Shown in pieces: positions 30,471 to 43,705 of a stretch of 61,839 nt of DNA. The translations under genes and the position numbers were made by a program. The notes below the pieces were generated by a model. That model was not told the DNA's origin, did not search any database, and saw only the letters and a program-made list of their open reading frames with translations. Position 1 is the stretch's first letter; the number at the start of each line of letters is the position of its first letter. The stretch comes from Nitrospirota bacterium (GTDB lineage: Bacteria; Nitrospirota; UBA9217). The stretch lies in the NCBI GenBank assembly GCA_035516965.1, contig DATIZR010000087.1, positions 1 through 61,839 of the forward strand, given 5' to 3'.

Positions 30471-30659
30471 CCTGAGGGATGTTTAATCCTGCATAACAAA
30501 TTTTCAAAACGCTGATTCTACCTACGTGAAGGCTAGAAGAACCTCTCTTTCTTAGTCAAGCTCTGGTCCCTTTTGCATTCCCATCAAAATGCCCTGCCCA
30601 TTCTCATTCCTGCAAACATTTAACCGGGGAGAACTGCGCATATTCAGCGGGTTATGATT

Positions 30660-30675
30660 TGGCACGGTCGATGCA
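30660..30675 (+). promoter_or_regulatory. Sigma-54 (RpoN) promoter
   Basis: TGGCACG-gtcg-ATGCA matches the consensus TGGCACG-N4-TTGCA at all but one position, with the required GG-N10-GC spacing. Transcription would start near 30686, just before the ribosome-binding site (aggagg, 30701-30706) of the gene at 30714. A sigma-54 activator of the NtrC type is encoded at 42326-43705. Confidence 0.7.
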
Positions 30676-30713
30676 ATATATCGTGCAAGAACGCACGAAA
30701 AGGAGGATACACC

Positions 30714-31043
30714 ATGAATACGACCCTTGCAAAAAAAGCAGCTTACCTCGGCGCAGGAGCGGGACTGATGCTCTTCGGGATGTTCGGACTTCTGCCCGGC
30801 AGCCTTCTGGGCGGCGCGGCCGGTATCAAAATCGCAGGATTGCTCTTCGGACTTCCGCTCGATCCTGGCGTCTTTTCGAGGGCGATCGTACTGCTGTCCA
30901 TGCTGGTCGGCGTCATGGTCTCCGGCATCGCCATAGTTACGGCGACATCGACGGCCTGCTGGCTCGCGGGCAATGTACTGCAGTCCACCGTGCGCGGGCA
31001 CCTGGAAGCGACTGACGTAAAAGCAGGCATCGGGCGCGGGTAA
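30714..31043 (+). CDS. Small two-helix membrane protein, paralogue A
   Basis: A 109-residue protein of unknown family. Two long hydrophobic stretches (about 10-50 and 60-92) are rich in Gly and Ala (GAGAGLMLFGMFGLLPGSLL; later VGVMVSGIAIVTATSTA), joined by GLPLDPGVFSRA. It aligns over most of its length with the next gene, so the two are tandem paralogues. The start is set by aggagg at 30701-30706; the frame is open further upstream without support. A sigma-54 promoter precedes it. No function can be proposed beyond a membrane role. Confidence 0.75.
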   Translation: MNTTLAKKAAYLGAGAGLMLFGMFGLLPGSLLGGAAGIKIAGLLFGLPLDPGVFSRAIVLLSMLVGVMVSGIAIVTATSTACWLAGNVLQSTVRGHLEATDVKAGIGRG

Positions 31044-31089
31044 GGGCGAACCGGAAAAAAATCAAAGCTGCGGCGGAGAGGAGACGGTC

Positions 31090-31401
31090 ATGAAGAACGT
31101 CACGATAAACACAGGGATGAAGATGGGCGCAACAATCGGCGGGCTGCTCTTTCTGGCGATGGGGATCGTCCCCGGTTTCTACTTCGGGAGCTTCGGCACG
31201 CTCATGCTACTCCAGAAGCTGTCGAACGGACCGCTCGAGCCGACGCTCTTCGTCCGGGCGGCGATCGTGACGGGTATCGCGGTCGGGATCGCCTGTGCCG
31301 CGGCGATCAGCGTTGTCATGGGCAGCCTCGCGGGCGCGGTCATCGGCTCCGCGGTCTCGGCGCCGGCATCATCAGTGAACAAGGCGGCCGGCGCGGCGTA
31401 G
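31090..31401 (+). CDS. Small two-helix membrane protein, paralogue B
   Basis: A 103-residue membrane protein related to its upstream neighbour: GATIGGLLFLAMGIVPGFYF, then GPLEPTLFVRAAIVTGIAVG and a Gly/Ala-rich second helix. The pattern G..G..F..G..PG...G, then PL.P..F.RA, is shared by both. It follows 46 bases after paralogue A and has its own ribosome-binding site (gagagga), so the two form one transcription unit. Family not recognised. Confidence 0.75.
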   Translation: MKNVTINTGMKMGATIGGLLFLAMGIVPGFYFGSFGTLMLLQKLSNGPLEPTLFVRAAIVTGIAVGIACAAAISVVMGSLAGAVIGSAVSAPASSVNKAAGAA

Positions 31402-31557: not shown

Positions 31558-31761
31558 TTAAGCGGTCTTGGATACGTTTGCCGCCTGAAGGCCCTTGGGG
31601 CCCTTTACCACCTCGAAGGTAACCTTGTCGCCCTCGTTCAGGGACTTGAAACCATCGCCGGCAATGGCCGAAAAGTGAACGAATACGTCCTCCCCGTTAT
31701 CCTGCGTGATGAAACCGAACCCCTTGCTGTTGTTGAACCACTTCACTACACCGTTTGCCAT
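31558..31761 (-). CDS. Cold-shock domain protein
   Basis: A 67-residue single-domain nucleic-acid chaperone of the CspA family. It has [18 protein letters not shown] with RNP1 (KGFGFI), RNP2 (VFVHF), and ends [14 protein letters not shown]. The ATG at 31761 is preceded by a gaggagaaac site. The frame is open far upstream, but the promoter lies there. It has its own promoter, a palindromic leader and a terminator, so it is transcribed alone. Confidence 0.96.
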
Positions 31762-31879: not shown

Positions 31880-34800
31880 TCATTGCTTTTGGGTGCGGGT
31901 GCGCGTGCGAGTACGCTCGTCCCTCCCCTGTTGGAAGGAACGGGCCTGGTGCATGAAGGCCTCCAGCCGCGTGAGGGACTGGGAGTCGCCCTGGCCTTCA
32001 TAGGCGAGGTTCAGGAGCGGGATGTTATCATGGTCCTCGCGGACGCGTTTCAGCACCGCCGTGGCGATCGTTCCCGGCATGCACGTGAAGGGCATGACGT
32101 TCACGATCCCCGAAACCCCCCGGGATATGTAGTCGATGGCCTTCCCCACGGAGAGCACGGCTTCACCCTCGAAGGAATGGTGGATGTAGGGCCTGGCGCG
32201 GTCCAGCGTCTTTTCGATGCTCGGCTCATGCAGGCTCCGGAAGCTGCCGTTGAAGCCACGGAGCAGACGCCGCTCCTCGCGGTGCTGGACGTGGCCCGTG
32301 AGATAGGCCCGGAACAGGCTTTTCCAGGACCGGCTCATCGCGGCCGAGACCTTGGCGGTCGCCGTGATGTACAGGAGCCATTCGGACACCGGGGCCACCC
32401 AGGCCTCGCCGCCCAGCCGCTCGATTTGGCGCACCACCTCTTCGTTGCTGAAGCGGTTGGACCGGACGTAGATCTCGCCGACGACTCCGATCACGGGCTT
32501 TGCCGGGCCGTGCGCATCGATCGCGCTGAACTCCGCGCAGGCCTCGCGCAGCACGGGCAGAAGGTCGTCGCGGCCTTCGATCGCCTTGACCACCCGGGCA
32601 AGCGCCGTCCGGTACACGCGGTCTGCGGCGCCCGCCTCCTTCTCGTAGGGCCGACGCTCCCAGAGCGCCTTCTGGAGCATGTCCACGGCCAGGGCGCCCC
32701 GCCAGCTCATGATGACGAAATTCCGGTCCAGCGCGCGCACGTCGTCATGGAGCGACTCGTCCTGCATCGGCGAGAGGATCTCCACCTGCTCCAGGCCGAG
32801 GCCGTCGAGCACCTGCCGGTGGTAGCGGTGGTACTGGCCGAAGCGGCAGGGTCCCTTGCCGGTCGGCATGAAGAAGGCGCTCCGGTCCGGATCGAACCCG
32901 GGCCGGCGAGTTGCCTTGATCATGTCTCCCGTCGTAAGGGCCAGGGGATAGCACTCCCTGCCCGAGCTGTGCTGCCTGCCGATGCGCACCGTTTCCTCGT
33001 CGGATTCGGGCAGCACCTCGGCGTCGACGCCGCAGGACCGGAATGCCGCGGCGAGGGCGTGGGCGTGGTCGGCCATGGGCGGAAGATAGACCTTCTTCCT
33101 GCTGAGCTCGCCCTTTCCGCCGGGGGCCGCGCGCGGGGCGCGGGGCGGCGGGGTTGCCCCTGCCCGGGAAAGGCTGTCCAGGAAGGCCTCAATCCGGGTG
33201 ATCGCCCCCGCGTCGGCGCTGTGCTCGTCGATCTCGAGCTGCAGGAAGGGCTTGCCCGCCATCTCCTGCCTGAAGAAGTGCGTGATGAACGAGTCCGGGC
33301 CGCAGCCGAAGTTCGTTATATAGACGGGAAAGAGCTGCGGATGCTCCCGGATGATCCGCGCCGCTGCCAGGATCTTCTGGCCCGACCGCCAGTACATGTT
33401 GCCATGGCCGGACAGGTCGACGCCGGCGAGCGGCAGATAGTCCATGGGGATCGCCTGGACCCCGAGGTCCCGGATCTTTCCGGCCAGATTCATGTTCATG
33501 CCGGGATCGCAGGTGTTATAGCTCCTGCCGACGAGCACGAGCGCGCGTTCGCCCGGCTTCAGGCCTGCAAGGACCGCGCGGCCACGCTCAGCCGCTGACC
33601 TCAGAAATTCCTCTTGCGCTTCCTGCGCCCGTCGCTGCGCGCGCCGCGCCGCGTCGCCGCTCCTGCCGAGCATCGACGCCAGCTCCCGCATGCTCCTGCC
33701 GAAGTTCCGTTCATCCTGCAGGTGGAGGACGGGTTCGATCACCTGCATGCGGCCGTACCGGACCGATGCGCGCGCAACGTAGGGAAGCGCCTGGGCATAG
33801 GGGCATGCCTGCGCGTTCTGCGCGTGGCCGTGCGTTTCGGGGAAACGGACGAAGCTCGGCAGGAACAGGACGTCCACGCCCCGGTCGACCAGGTGCTGGA
33901 CGTGGCCGAGGGCGACCTTGGCGGGAAAGCAGGTCTCCGCGACGGTCAGCTCGAGCGCCCCGTTGATCAGTGAGCGGTTCGTCGGGTCCGAGAGGACGAC
34001 CCGGTAGCCGAGCTCGGCAAAGAACGTCCGCCAGAAGGGAAGAAAGTCGTTCACATAGAGCGCACGGGGTACGCCGATGACGGGTGCGTCCGGCCGGAGC
34101 GGCCCCGAGGCAGGCTCCTTCAGGAGCAAACGCTCGCGCTCCGCGAACAGGTCCGGTACGCCCGCCGCGCCGGAGGACTTCCTCTTGACATCGTATTTTT
34201 CGCAGCGGCTTCCGTAGAAGAGCGGTTTTTCTCCCGTAAAGCTCACGCGCCGGATGTCGCAGCGGTTCGCGCACTCCGCGCACGCGAAGGTCGTGACCGT
34301 GTAGGCGCGGCTGCTCAGGTCGAAGCCCTTGAACGTGCTCCTTCCTGTGCCTTCACGCATGGCGATGATGGCCGCGCCGATCGCGCCCGTGACCTCGTGG
34401 TGCGGCGGCACCGTGACCGGCCTGCCCGTGATGATCTCGAAGGCCGAGACGACGGCCCGGTTCGCCGCGACGCCGCCCTGAAAGAAAATGCGGTCCCCGA
34501 TGCGCTTGCCGGCGACCACCTTGTTCAGGTAGTTCTGGACAATGGAGTAGGCGAGCCCCGCGGTCAGTTCCTCCACGCCCGAGCCCGTGTTCATGGCATG
34601 GACCAGGTCCGACTCGATGAAGACGGTGCAGCGCTCGCCGAAGCGGCAGGGCGACGCCGCACGGAACGCCCGGTCCTCGAACTCACCCCTGATCCGGATG
34701 CCCAGACGCTCTGCCTGCTCCTCCAGGAACGAGCCGGTGCCCGCGGCGCAGGCCTTGTTCATCTCGAAATCCACGACAGCCCCGTCGCGGAGGCTGATGA

Positions 34801-36091
34801 ACTTCGAGTCCTGGCCGCCGATCTCGAAAATAGTGTCGACCAGAGGATCGATGGCGGCCGCGGCCGTTGCCTGGGCCGTGATCTCGTTGCGGACCACGTC
34901 GGCGCCTATCATATCGCCCGTGAGATAGCGGCCCGAGCCCGTGGTCCCCGCGCCCAGGATCCTCACCCGCGATCCGATCTCGGCGCCGACCTCGGCGAGC
35001 CCCTGCTTGACGGCTTCGATGGGCCTGCCCGCAGTTGGCAGATAGCGCTTGGAAAGCACCTGCATCTTCGCATTGATGACGACCACGTTCGTCGAGACCG
35101 AGCCGACATCAACGCCGAGATAGGCATCGATCAGGCCGTCCTTCCCGGGCACCGCGTCATGGTCCGGGTTCGGCAGGATGCCGCGGGGGCGGGCAAGCTG
35201 TGTTGCGCTGGTCCGGGCCGGGCTGCCCAGACCGTCCAGGAAGGCGGCAAAGGCGGCAAAACCGCGATAGGGAACCCTCTGGTCAGGCTGCTGCATGACC
35301 GTGAGGGCCGCGCCGATTGCCCCGGAGGTGCTGAAATGGGGGGGGACGAGGAGATCGGCCCCGGAGAGGCCGAGCACTTCGCGGAAAGCGCGGCCCATGC
35401 CGGGATTGGCCGCCACTCCGCCCAGGAACAGGAGCGGAGCCGGGAACTTCTTCCCCTTGCCGACGGTCGCCTTGAAGTTCCTCGCCATGGCAAAGCAGAG
35501 CCCGGCGACGATATCGAAATCCGGAGTGGCGATCTGCTGGAGATGGATCATGTCGCTCTTGGCGAACACGCTGCATCTGCCGGCGAGGCGGGGGGGCGTT
35601 CCGGATTTAAGGGCGAGTGCGCCGAACTCTTCGATGGTGAGATGGAGGCGCGAGGCCTGCTGGTCGAGGAACGAGCCGGTGCCCGCGGCGCAGGCGCTGT
35701 TCATGGAGAAGTCCTCGATCCTGGCACCGCCGGACCGGGCGTCCCGCGCGAGGTTGATGAGCTTGGCGTCCTCTCCGCCCATCTCGATGATTGTTCTGGC
35801 TGCCGGATGGAATTGTCCCGCGAAGCAGGACTGGGCAAGGACCTCGTTGATGAACCGCGCCCCCAGGGCGCCGGCCGCCTGCTTGCCGCCGCTGCCCGTG
35901 ATGCCGGCCGCGGCGACGCGGTCTTCGGGAATGACGGAGAAAAGGCCTTCGAGCTCCCGCGCCAGCGCCGCCGGTGCATCGCCCTTGATCCTCGTGTAAG
36001 TTTCGGACAGCACGGCCCGGGAGCCGTCGATGAGGGCGGTCTTGATGCTCACGGAGCCGATGTCGATCCCGAGAAAAACCTTGTTCTTCAT
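31880..36091 (-). CDS. Giant CoA-activase-type protein (two BadF domains, DUF2229, dehydratase-like part)
   Basis: A 1,403-residue protein related to activators of 2-hydroxyacyl-CoA dehydratases and benzoyl-CoA reductase. Two ASKHA ATPase modules are in tandem. The first has [15 protein letters not shown], then [15 protein letters not shown] with Cys134, and [10 protein letters not shown] with Cys173. The second repeats both motifs ([15 protein letters not shown] and [11 protein letters not shown]). These Cys pairs normally hold a [4Fe-4S] cluster at a dimer interface; here the two modules could form an internal pair. After them come a Cys-rich DUF2229 part ([12 protein letters not shown]) and a C-terminal part like the dehydratase subunits ([17 protein letters not shown]). 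The substrate is unknown. The frame is open to 36181, but that lies in the promoter; the ATG at 36091 is preferred. Confidence 0.9.
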
Positions 36092-36148
36092 GAACAATCC
36101 TTGAGTGAGGAAGACGTGAAAGCCCTGGGTGCCGCGAGGATGTTTGTC

Positions 36149-36177
36149 ATTATAGTAAGAATAACAGGCGGAGTCAA
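36149..36177 (-). promoter_or_regulatory. Sigma-70 promoter of the CoA-activase-type gene
   Basis: On the minus strand TTGACT (36172-36177) and a perfect TATAAT (36149-36154) are separated by 17 bases, about 60 bases before the ATG at 36091. Confidence 0.75.
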
Positions 36178-36263
36178 TCACTGACCCCGGGAAAAACAGG
36201 GAGGACGCCGGTCGGCGTGCGGCGAGAACGGGTCAAAACAACTCTGGTAAAAGCCTAAAACAA

Positions 36264-39810: not shown

Positions 39811-42336
39811 ATGGAACGGAAAAAAAAGTCCATCAAACATCCGAAATCAAACAAGAGCCCCGGGAAGAAGAATACGACAAGCCGCAGCACGCACGCATCC
39901 ACGCAAAGCACGGCTGTCGGATCGAGGGACCTGATCCCTGGAGAACAAGCCCGGTTGATCGAGGACCTGAGGACTCGCGGCATCGATCTCGACATGCAGA
40001 GCGAGGAGCTCAGGGCAATCCGGGCGGAGCACACCAGGCGAAAGAGAGCCGAGGAAGAGCTGCTGCGCAGTGAGGCCATCCTGAAACAGGCCGGACAAAT
40101 GGCGGGCCTCGGCGCCTGGGACCTGAAGATCTCGAACTTCGACGACCTCAACGCCAACCCGCTGAGCTGGTCCGATCAGGTGTACCGTATTTTCGGCTAC
40201 GAGCCGGGTGAAGTGGCTGTTACGAATGACCTGTTCTTCCAGCGGGTCCATCCCGACGACCGCCGGAAGATCAGCGATGCCGTCTCCCGGGCGATCGCCC
40301 TGAAGCAGCCATACAGCATAGAGCACCGCATCATCCGGCCTGACGGCGTGGAACGAGTTGTCTTGGAGCATGCTGAGATCATGTTCGATGACAGGGGCCG
40401 TCCGGTTCGCATCATCGGCGCGGTCCAGGATGTCACCGGACGCAAGCGGATCGAGGAGTCGCTGCGCGCCAGCGAAGAGCGCTACCGCTCCTATGTTGAA
40501 GTTACCGGGCAACTGGGCTGGACGACCGACGCCAAGGGAGCTGTCGTGGAAGATCTTCCCGCATGGCGGGCATATACCGGACAGACCTTTGATGAGATCA
40601 AGGGCCTGGGATGGTTGAACGCACTTCACCCGGACGACCGTGAGGAGGCGGCGCTGAAATGGGAAAAGGCCGTGTCGGAAAAAAGCAGCTACGAGGCCGA
40701 ATGCCGCTTTCGGCGGTACGACGGGGTTTACCGGTATTTCCTGGACCGCGGTATCCCGGTGTTCCGCGAGGATGGCAGCATCCGGGAATGGGTGGGGACG
40801 TGCACTGATATAACCGACCGGAAACAGGCAGAGGAGACGCTCCGGCGGGCCAATGAAGACCTTGAAGCGCGCGTCCGGGAGAGGACAGCCCGGCTGCTGG
40901 AGCAGACCCGGATCCTGGAGTCCTTTTTCCGGCACACCCAGACCTGCCTCGTGTTCCTCGACTGCGACTTCAATTTCATCCGGGTCAACGAGGCCTATGC
41001 CCGCGCCTGTTCACGCCCGGTTTCGGACTTCATCGGCCGCAATCATTTCTCGGACTATCCTTCCGATGAGCTCAAGGCAAGGTTCCAGAAGGTCATCGAC
41101 ACCGGGGAGCCCTACGCCGCTTTCGGAAGACCCTTCGTCTTCCCCGACCACCCGGAACGGGGTACGACATACTGGGACCTGTCCGTTGCTCCCATCACCG
41201 GCGTCGACAACGAAGTGGAGCTCCTGATCTTTTCGCTGGTCAATGTCACTGAGCGCAAAGGAGCGGAGGAGGCGAACCTCCGCCTCGCCGCTGCCGTGGA
41301 ATCCGCCGCGGACGGCGTGGTCATCACCGATGGGGCGCGGGGGATGATCCAGTACGTCAATGGCGCCTTCGAGCAGATCACCGGCTGGTCCCGCGACGAG
41401 ATCCTGGGCCGCACCCTGCACCTGCTCGACAGCGGCCGCCATGATGAGCGGTTCTATGCGGACCTCCGGGAATCGCTCAAACGCGACGGCGTCTGGCGGG
41501 GCAGGCTCATCAGCCGGAAGAAGGACGGGACCCTGTACCACGAGGACACCACCCTGGCGATGGCCCGGGACGCCGGGGGAAAGGTCGTCAACTACGTGTC
41601 GGTGAAGCGCGACGTGACCGAACGGCTCAGGCTCGAATCCATCGCCGAGGCGGTCAATACCATGGACAGCATCGGCTACATCTTCGCCGGCCTCAGGCAC
41701 GAGATCGGCAATCCCATCAACTCCGCGAAGTCGATCCTGTCCGTGCTCCGGCACAAGGTGGATACGGCATCGCCCGAACGCGTGGGCAACTATGTCGACC
41801 GCGCCCTCACCGAGATCGGCCGCGTCGAGACGCTCCTGCAGCATTTCAGAAACTTCAATCTCTATGAAACACCCAGGATCCAGAAGCTGGACGCGGCGTC
41901 CTTTCTCGGCAAGCTCCGGGACCTGCTCGGCGAAGACTTTGCGTCGAAGGGCATAGCTCTTTCGCTCCGGATCGGGCCGGGGGCGGAATGGATCACGGCC
42001 GATCCCCGCGCGCTCCACCAGGTGCTGCTGAACGTCATCACGAACGCGGTTGACGCGGTCGAGGGCCGCCCTGACCCGCGCATCGACATCACCGCGATCG
42101 CGCCGGCCGGACAGACCGTGATCCGCGTGGCGGACAACGGGCGGGGCATGACCGCGGAGCAGCGGCAGAGCCTTTTCAAGCCGTTCTACACCACGAAGCC
42201 GCGCGGCACCGGCATCGGCCTCATGATCTCGCGGAAAATGATGGCAAAAATGAACGGTACGATCGAGATCACGAGCGTCCCGGACCAGGGGACGACGGTA
42301 GACATCTCCCTGCAGGAGGTGACGCATGGCTCGTGA
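39811..42336 (+). CDS. Cytoplasmic histidine kinase with four PAS domains
   Basis: An 841-residue soluble sensor kinase. After a basic start (RKKKSIKHPKSNKSPGKKN) and a short coiled coil come PAS domains at about 75-200, 215-345, 365-485 and 490-610, each ending in a DVT.RK-type linker (VQDVTGRKRIEE, CTDITDRKQAEE, VNVTERKGAEE, KRDVTERLRLES). The kinase core has His630 in FAGLRHEIGNPINSAKSIL and an ATPase domain with DNGRGM and GTGIGLMIS. No membrane segment is seen, so the signal is cytoplasmic. A GTG at 39787 is an alternative start; neither has a clear ribosome-binding site. It overlaps the NtrC-type gene by 11 bases, its evident partner. Confidence 0.9.
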   Translation: MERKKKSIKHPKSNKSPGKKNTTSRSTHASTQSTAVGSRDLIPGEQARLIEDLRTRGIDLDMQSEELRAIRAEHTRRKRAEEELLRSEAILKQAGQMAGLGAWDLKISNFDDLNANPLSWSDQVYRIFGYEPGEVAVTNDLFFQRVHPDDRRKISDAVSRAIALKQPYSIEHRIIRPDGVERVVLEHAEIMFDDRGRPVRIIGAVQDVTGRKRIEESLRASEERYRSYVEVTGQLGWTTDAKGAVVEDLPAWRAYTGQTFDEIKGLGWLNALHPDDREEAALKWEKAVSEKSSYEAECRFRRYDGVYRYFLDRGIPVFREDGSIREWVGTCTDITDRKQAEETLRRANEDLEARVRERTARLLEQTRILESFFRHTQTCLVFLDCDFNFIRVNEAYARACSRPVSDFIGRNHFSDYPSDELKARFQKVIDTGEPYAAFGRPFVFPDHPERGTTYWDLSVAPITGVDNEVELLIFSLVNVTERKGAEEANLRLAAAVESAADGVVITDGARGMIQYVNGAFEQITGWSRDEILGRTLHLLDSGRHDERFYADLRESLKRDGVWRGRLISRKKDGTLYHEDTTLAMARDAGGKVVNYVSVKRDVTERLRLESIAEAVNTMDSIGYIFAGLRHEIGNPINSAKSILSVLRHKVDTASPERVGNYVDRALTEIGRVETLLQHFRNFNLYETPRIQKLDAASFLGKLRDLLGEDFASKGIALSLRIGPGAEWITADPRALHQVLLNVITNAVDAVEGRPDPRIDITAIAPAGQTVIRVADNGRGMTAEQRQSLFKPFYTTKPRGTGIGLMISRKMMAKMNGTIEITSVPDQGTTVDISLQEVTHGS

Positions 42337-43705
42337 CAGCAAGAGGACGCTCCTGATCATCGACGATGAAGAGACGTTCTGCATCGCGGTGAAGGATTAC
42401 CTCGAGAGCGATGCGCTCATGGTGATGACCGCCCATACCGGAGCGGAGGGGCTGGCCGTCTGCGCGCGGATGCAGATCGACATCGTCCTGCTGGACCAGC
42501 GGCTCCCGGACGGCAATGGTTACGACCTCGTCCCCTCTATCCTCGGCAAGAACGACCAGGCAAAGATCATCTTCATCACGGCCTATCCCTCCTTTGAAAA
42601 CGCCAGGCAGGCCGTCCGCGCGGGCGCTCACGATTACCTGTCGAAGCCCCTCGACCTGGAAGAGCTCAAGACCGTGGTCGACTCCCTGCTGCACACCCTG
42701 GACCTGGAGCAGGTGGCGCAACTGCACGCCTATGAGCAGGACCGCGAACGGAGGGCCGCCGTGCTGATCGGCGGCGGTGGCGGGCTCGCCGGGATCATGC
42801 CGCTGATGGAATCCGCTTCGCGGTCCGGCGCACCGGTCCTCATCACCGGAGAAACGGGGACGGGCAAGAGCCTTGTTGCGAAAATGATTCACTTCCAGAG
42901 CACCCAGTCCCGCGCGCCCTTCGTCAGCATCAACTGCGCCACCCTGCCCGAGAACCTCGTCGAGTCGGAGCTCTTTGGGTATGAGCGGGGGGCGTTTACC
43001 GGGGCTGTATCCGCAAAGAAGGGGCTCTTCGAAATGGCCGACGGCGGGACGATTTTTCTGGACGAGATCGGCGAAATGCCGCTCCAGCTTCAGTCGAAGC
43101 TCCTGCACGTCATTGACGACGGCGAAGTGCGGCGACTGGGCGGCACGGCGTCAAGGAATGTGAAGGTCCGCGTCATCGCCGCCACCAATGCCGAGCTGAA
43201 GAGCAGCCTGGGCAGTACCTTCCGCAAGGACCTCTACTACCGCCTGGGAGTACTCCAGATTCACATGCCTCCCCTGCGGGAACGGAGGCAGGACATTGCG
43301 TCCCTGTGCGATTACCTGTTGAAGGAGTTTCCCGGGGGGAAGCTGCTGTCCATCCCGGATGACGAGATGGCTCGTCTCACGGCATACGACTGGCCCGGCA
43401 ACATCCGGGAGTTGAGGAACATCCTGGAACGGGCATTTCTCATGCGGCACTCGGGCGAACTCCGGCCTTCTTTGCTCCTGGATCGCCCCGCAGAAGCGGC
43501 GAAGCCCGCGTTTCACCCGGGAGAGACATTGCCGGAGAGTACGGGCATCACGCTGGACGAAGCTGAAAAGCGGGCAATTGCCGATGCCCTTCGCAGGCAT
43601 TCGGGGAAACTGAGCAGGACAGCCCAAGCCCTCGGGACGTCTCTTTCCACTTTGAAAAGACGTATAAAGAGGTATGGCCTCGGCAGGGAAACGGGGCCAT
43701 ACTGA
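42326..43705 (+). CDS. Sigma-54-dependent response regulator, NtrC family
   Basis: A 459-residue activator. The receiver (1-120) has the acidic pair (IIDDEE) and Asp57 (IVLLDQRLPD). The AAA+ domain has Walker A GETGTGKS at 175-182, the sigma-54 contact loop GAFTGA at 222-227, and GTIFLDEIGEMPLQLQSKLL as Walker B region. The C-terminal Fis-type helix-turn-helix is RRHSGKLSRTAQALGTSLS and KRRIKRYGL. It is coupled to the PAS kinase. The sigma-54 promoter at 30660 is a possible target, but that link is inference. Confidence 0.95.
   Translation: MARDSKRTLLIIDDEETFCIAVKDYLESDALMVMTAHTGAEGLAVCARMQIDIVLLDQRLPDGNGYDLVPSILGKNDQAKIIFITAYPSFENARQAVRAGAHDYLSKPLDLEELKTVVDSLLHTLDLEQVAQLHAYEQDRERRAAVLIGGGGGLAGIMPLMESASRSGAPVLITGETGTGKSLVAKMIHFQSTQSRAPFVSINCATLPENLVESELFGYERGAFTGAVSAKKGLFEMADGGTIFLDEIGEMPLQLQSKLLHVIDDGEVRRLGGTASRNVKVRVIAATNAELKSSLGSTFRKDLYYRLGVLQIHMPPLRERRQDIASLCDYLLKEFPGGKLLSIPDDEMARLTAYDWPGNIRELRNILERAFLMRHSGELRPSLLLDRPAEAAKPAFHPGETLPESTGITLDEAEKRAIADALRRHSGKLSRTAQALGTSLSTLKRRIKRYGLGRETGPY

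Follow-up and report, generated by a model that had tools for sequence, protein, structure and literature searches.

What controls the expression of a tandem pair of orphan membrane proteins encoded in a Nitrospirota genome, and what might these proteins do? The pair lies on contig DATIZR010000087.1, the whole 61,839 nucleotides of which were analysed here and are referred to as the window (contig C87 of genome G000). The first gene, p1 (30714-31043, forward strand), encodes a 109-aa Gly-rich membrane protein with two long predicted helices (residues 4-45 and 53-106), and the second, p2 (31090-31401, forward strand), a 103-aa paralogue of p1 carrying the motif GFYFGS(Y/F)G and predicted helices at residues 2-45 and 53-102. 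That the two products would be tandem paralogous membrane proteins of about 100 residues, as the original prediction held, is borne out by BLASTP (28/95 identities, E 2e-6) and by profile-profile comparison (probability 99.2%, E 1.3e-19). Glycine and alanine together make up 31-32% of both proteins, which also contain several GxxxG motifs, and AlphaFold2 models each as two long helices (mean pLDDT 86 for p2 and 77 for p1). Beyond p2 lie a convergent gene (31561-31761, reverse strand), which we take to encode a CspA-family cold-shock protein, and a 1433-aa ORF (31880-36181, reverse strand), the product of which presumably resembles a fused BadF-type acyl-CoA dehydratase activator-like protein.

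As also predicted, the pair falls into no known family as far as Pfam and NCBIfam go, neither covering p1-p2 consistently. Marginal and inconsistent matches to the Pfam families TM7S3_TM198, oleosin and Pam17 were rejected; p2 scores 23.8 bits against a gathering cut-off of 29.2 for TM7S3_TM198 (PF13886), a family matched by 3/49 members of the p2 family at E up to 0.01. Comparison of the predicted p1 and p2 folds with solved structures gave no match below E 1 (c-ring-like structural matches of p1, at E 1.7-10, were dismissed as chance), and searches of a viral fold library with the same folds, of the PDB with a p2 sequence profile and of a plasmid collection for p2 found no match. As neither predicted structure significantly resembles a solved one, any role proposed for p1-p2 rests on gene context.

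A sigma-54 (RpoN) site with one mismatch and ideal spacing had been claimed in front of 30714. Positions 30658-30677 read TTTGGCACG-GTCG-ATGCAAT, and the predicted -24/-12 promoter TGGCACG-GTCG-ATGCA within them (TGGCACGGTCGATGCA, 30660-30675, forward strand) has the canonical 10 bp between GG and GC, a single mismatch to TGGCAYG-N4-TTGCW and a distance of 39 bp to the ATG of p1, with a ribosome-binding site (AAGGAGG, 30700-30706, forward strand) that is kept in the paralogous copies. In the window alone this site is not significant: the one-mismatch pattern has 2 matches against 1.16 by chance, and a looser pattern 2 against 0.43 expected, which is within chance. Such a lack of excess is what one would expect if the match were a chance look-alike and an ordinary promoter drove p1-p2. 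The strict motif TGGCAY-N6-TGC, however, occurs at most 125 bp upstream of p1 in 52/54 p1 homologues from Nitrospirota, as opposed to 0.95% of 18,200 random stretches of equal size, so that the promoter is highly significant. This conservation at the same place despite diverging flanks bears out the original claim and leaves a chance look-alike with a negligible probability. The three complete copies in the genome repeat the picture, the DNA upstream having diverged while the position of the promoter is unchanged, and the genome does contain an rpoN gene (C63:22192-22677, E 2.8e-61), the lack of which would have overturned the original prediction. At the level of sequence comparison, the putative -24/-12 site is confirmed as a real sigma-54 promoter, and control of p1-p2 by sigma-54 together with an activator is well supported.

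Enhancer sites upstream of 30660, as control by an NtrC-type regulator would call for, are present as two predicted palindromic sites. The proximal one, TTCTCATTCCTGCAAA (30601-30616, forward strand), begins 59 bp before the TGG and is the sole site in the window with at most two mismatches to TTTGCA-N4-TGCAAA, having exactly two. The distal one, TTTGCATTCCCATCAA (30572-30587, forward strand), is a half-palindrome, degenerate here, and is placed 29 bp farther upstream than the proximal site. The functional region starts near 30572, farther upstream than the gene span originally noted, which is itself correct. Between the proximal palindrome and the -24 box lies a predicted IHF-like site, ATTCAGCGGGTTA (30642-30654, forward strand), whose window copy has two mismatches to the IHF consensus WATCAA-N4-TTR.

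These elements recur with the same geometry elsewhere. The TTTGCA-N4-TGCAAA palindrome begins 58-61 bp before the TGG in 48/49 promoters, and the proximal palindrome scores at least 9/12 in 49/49, compared with 1.4% of shuffles. In 34/49 promoters a second palindrome precedes the proximal one by 29-31 bp, and in distant Nitrospirota this distal site is often a complete TTTGCA-N4-TGCAAA. Of 53 promoters, 31 have an IHF-like site with no more than one mismatch (4.2% in shuffles), 30 of these 31 sites sitting 17-18 bp before the TGG. RpoN promoters commonly have IHF between enhancer and promoter (PMC7962754). At the p1 promoter, too, IHF may act. Most home-family promoters have TTCTCA as the left arm of the proximal site, with TTTGCA in G004, G006, G010 and G011. 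It does count against regulation through these sites that both activator sites and the IHF-like site are degenerate in the window. Taken over all loci, the comparison shows the predicted promoter, the tandem sites and their fixed geometry to form a rigid, phylum-wide module.

The window does not hold the only copy of this arrangement. Complete p1-p2 pairs are found on contigs C87, C15 and C35 of G000, and C52 and C53 each end in 141 bp identical to the start of C15, the identity running from the exact distal activator site. Contig C53 encodes rpsB-tsf-pyrH, a conserved neighbour of the p1-p2 pair in G002, and because C53 carries this neighbour, C52 marks a further copy, the genes of which are unassembled. 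G000 thus has four or more p1-p2 cassettes predicted to be sigma-54-controlled, among them the segment 30572-31401. In the near-identical promoter copies (C15:1-141, C52:1-141 and C53:1-141 in G000; C115/C167 in G010; C91/C114 in G011), identity sets in at the distal activator site or close to it. As assemblies break at such copies, the number of p1-p2 copies is under-counted; recent duplication, gene conversion and a mobile cassette are not distinguished as their origin. One copy is fixed between divergent rpsB-tsf-pyrH and rplM-rpsI in several family genomes (C53-C15 in G000; loci L046, L047, L057 and L058).

Matches to p2 were obtained in 14/14 family genomes, those in G001 and G005 being weak or partial, and 23 complete p1-p2 pairs were extracted from the family. 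A scan of genome contigs with the single p2 sequence gave no match; an alignment-based, profile-derived p2 scan of GTDB genomes yielded 64 loci, all but one from Nitrospirota. The exception (L107) is a p2 fragment whose contig sits in a Phycisphaerae bin, probably through mis-binning of Nitrospirota DNA. Homologues of p1 are found at the 23 family loci and at most of the distant ones. At locus L184 (G011:C126:73500-77968) a p1-type gene stands by itself behind this promoter, upstream of a NapC-like multihaem cytochrome; p1 can therefore occur without p2.

To look for further RpoN-type sites, we scanned whole genomes for the spaced half-site and promoter pattern TGCAAA-N32..60-TGGCAY-N6-TGC, which gives 43 matches in the 14 family genomes against 1 for a reversed-pattern control. 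Nearly all well-formed matches precede either p1-p2 or one orthologous cytochrome operon, found with the module in five genomes (G000, G002, G007, G009 and G012); the few others (e.g. in G001, G003 and G004) have no palindrome that could be recognised upstream and are best taken as chance matches. The operon encodes a multihaem cytochrome c (PF14522; 7 CxxCH in G000) and a cytochrome b561 (PF01292). Its G000 copy, at C104:28953-30549, has the same promoter module, with 29 bp between distal and proximal sites and 58 bp from the proximal site to the TGG, which matches the spacing of the p1 promoter. At seven distant loci (L069, L070, L071, L072, L090, L103 and L105) p1-p2 stand directly before the cytochrome operon, in the order p1-p2, cytochrome c, cytochrome b561 and a third, multihaem cytochrome c; the first cytochrome c has 7 CxxCH in six of the seven. 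The shared module shows p1-p2 and the cytochrome operon to be under what would be common control.

Which activator exerts this control? An NtrC-type regulator had been predicted, possibly that encoded in the window itself at 42326-43705. The two palindromic sites support the first part of this prediction; the second fares poorly. The 42326 product is a complete REC-AAA-HTH activator with GAFTGA, a PAS kinase precedes its gene, and it lies 11 kb from p1-p2. It is, however, one among 26 such activators in the genome, and strong relatives are present in 10/27 p2-bearing genomes; outside the family they occur in 2/15 p2 genomes versus 4/91, which is no association (P 0.20). No counterpart of it was seen near the other p1-p2 copies examined, and its HTH (TSLSTLKRR) is unlike the conserved TLYRK helix described below. 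It is highly improbable that it activates this sigma-54 promoter, and its proposal as the controller of p1-p2 is very probably wrong.

A better candidate, on comparative grounds, is the NtrC-type activator encoded at C3:28687-30039 in G000 (REC, PF00072; sigma-54 AAA+, PF00158; Fis-type HTH, PF02954). An NtrC-type activator faces the cytochrome operon at L069, L070 and L103 (with its kinase also seen at L069 and L070), and activator and kinase adjoin the cytochrome operon or p1-p2 in about 10 further genomes. The C3 activator is 55% identical to the activators of those loci, the next best activator of G000 reaching 46%. Across 118 genomes of the phylum, a score gap separates its orthologs (at least 488 bits) from paralogues (at most 452 bits). 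By this measure an ortholog is present in 26/27 p2-positive versus 7/91 p2-negative genomes (P 1e-18), and in 14/15 versus 7/91 outside the home family (P 2e-11), shared ancestry being handled in these counts by leaving out the home family only. Seven genomes have the activator but no p2: in five of them a contig stops where p1-p2 would be expected or close by, and one has p1 beside the activator; G085, the sole p2-positive genome without an activator ortholog, has a solitary p2 and the module promoter is absent. Orthologs share a near-invariant recognition helix, G(V/I)D(L/I)-TLYRK, and the C3 activator may well be what binds TTTGCA-N4-TGCAAA.

Two observations temper this assignment within the home family. 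There, neither activator nor kinase was seen beside p1-p2. Moreover, the GAFTGA loop reads GAFTSA in C3:28687-30039 and G(A/S)FTSA in the other home-family orthologs read, a change that could alter sigma-54 contact and thus speaks against the C3 activator, while nearly all orthologs outside the home family retain GAFTGA. The altered loop and the TTCTCA arm of the proximal site occur in the same family and possibly changed together.

Another activator of the genome, such as an NtrX-like protein or the PEP-CTERM regulator PrsR, might control p1-p2 instead. An NtrX-like activator with its kinase is encoded directly upstream of p1-p2 at L088 (848-2188) and L093 (3949-5295), and G000 has a true PrsR at C40:3279, a regulator that likewise works with sigma-54 sites and a motif upstream of them (PMC1569441). 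None of these comes near the C3-type activator in co-occurrence or adjacency, the NtrX-like neighbour is confined to those two related loci, where it may reflect chance or a second input, and the motif of PrsR, a 17-mer, has TTTACA at its end (PMC1569441) and is not TTTGCA-N4-TGCAAA. We consider control by such an activator unlikely. For none of the named activators listed does the C3 activator itself reach the NCBIfam cut-off: it was rejected as PrsR (TIGR02915; 412.9 bits against a cut-off of 502.6, with a different motif) and as LuxO (NF041946; 405.8 against 800). The PrsR at C40:3279-4634 (TIGR02915, 614.9 bits) suggests a PEP-CTERM/exosortase system in G000.

The gene for the C3 activator is preceded by one for a histidine kinase of about 740 aa (C3:26439-28667) with dCache_1, PAS, HisKA and HATPase domains. 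Its sensor domain matches dCache_1 (PF02743) above cut-off and leaves PF11845 unmatched, and a CxxCH motif is present in the membrane-proximal Cache of 32/32 intact orthologous kinases. Single-Cache haem-c domains (PF11845) are common in Nitrospirota, and a signalling-fused member bound nitric oxide (PMC12889525, a 2026 preprint). Because the domain here is a double Cache without a PF11845 match, haem attachment and the sensing of nitric oxide or redox state by this kinase are what we infer from the conserved motif. Haem-c sensors have recently been reported with a single Cache; this kinase suggests that the double Cache, too, has a haem-c variant.

The best explanation overall, and one that we regard as probable, is a haem-sensor sigma-54 regulon comprising the p1-p2 cassettes and the cytochrome operon. 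The membrane-bound kinase, with its periplasmic double Cache and acquired CxxCH, would probably sense a redox or gas signal, e.g. nitric oxide, and would phosphorylate the adjacent C3 activator. The activator would bind a pair of TTTGCA-N4-TGCAAA palindromes spaced by about three helical turns. IHF would bend the stretch that separates these sites from the promoter, and the -24/-12 site is where sigma-54 RNA polymerase would then be activated. In response to this signal, the multihaem cytochrome c/cytochrome b561 operon at C104:28953-30549 would be turned on as well. Conservation and co-occurrence of the regulator, together with the conserved CxxCH, are shown by the genome comparisons.

As for p1 and p2, these would be hydrophobic helical hairpins, probably pairing with each other, that support or protect the respiratory module in the cytoplasmic membrane. 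Their gene context suggests a part in a respiratory membrane response, more specifically as a membrane component, present in several copies, that accompanies a quinol-cytochrome module. Alternatively, they could serve the cytochrome b/c complex itself, as structural subunits or as assembly factors, as their first place in the cytochrome operon at the seven distant loci and the promoter module common to both in G000 would suggest. Yet the home family has more p1-p2 copies than cytochrome operons (at least four pairs versus one operon found here), most copies stand alone, and L184 has p1 without p2. The subunit reading is a serious possibility, if on balance less likely than not. A more far-reaching reading can also be formulated: an undescribed, Nitrospirota-specific regulon in which a double-Cache kinase with covalent haem c and its own activator act through a near-invariant enhancer-IHF-promoter module on a cytochrome c/b561 quinol module and on several near-identical copies of a new paired helical-hairpin family, the latter forming a respiratory membrane structure. 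All of this taken jointly is put forward tentatively, its chance falling only a little short of even. A limited search of the literature on sigma-54 or RpoN in Nitrospirota and Thermodesulfovibrio found no regulon description in open-licence titles and abstracts.

Nitrospirota include uncultured cyclers of sulfur, nitrogen and iron, and the outcome for them is a testable circuit consisting of a sensor, an activator, a binding site and targets. With the module pattern as a rule, targets can be sought in every genome of this group, and an orphan membrane-protein pair is linked to an uncharacterised cytochrome b/c electron-transfer module.

Several known systems resemble this one in part. General NtrC/AtoC-type sigma-54 systems share the REC-AAA-HTH activator, the adjoining kinase and the IHF-like site between enhancer and promoter, but the C3 activator stays below every named-activator cut-off listed in NCBIfam. 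The sCache_heme domain (DUF3365/Tll0287, PF11845; PMC12889525) is likewise an extracytoplasmic Cache with an inserted CxxCH haem-c motif, reportedly enriched in Nitrospirota and found fused to histidine kinases, whereas the kinase described here has a double Cache (dCache_1, PF02743) that PF11845 does not match. The PrsK/PrsR system of PEP-CTERM proteins (Haft et al. 2006, PMC1569441) shares with ours a conserved upstream motif, sometimes doubled, whose distance to a sigma-54 site is fairly constant and which recurs before many genes in a single genome; phylogenetic profiling linked it to an NtrC-type regulator and a kinase. Motif (that of PrsR ends in TTTACA), regulator and targets are different in our case, and the spacing is tighter. 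LuxO and its qrr targets in Vibrio (TTGCAW3TGCAA, PMC11443567) also combine an NtrC-type response regulator with sigma-54-dependent multicopy targets and one or two TTGCA...TGCAA palindromes some 90-120 bp upstream of the start, but the spacer in our palindromes is N4 rather than W3 and the targets are protein-coding. The C3 activator would thus resemble PrsR and LuxO in its mode of action, not in family membership.
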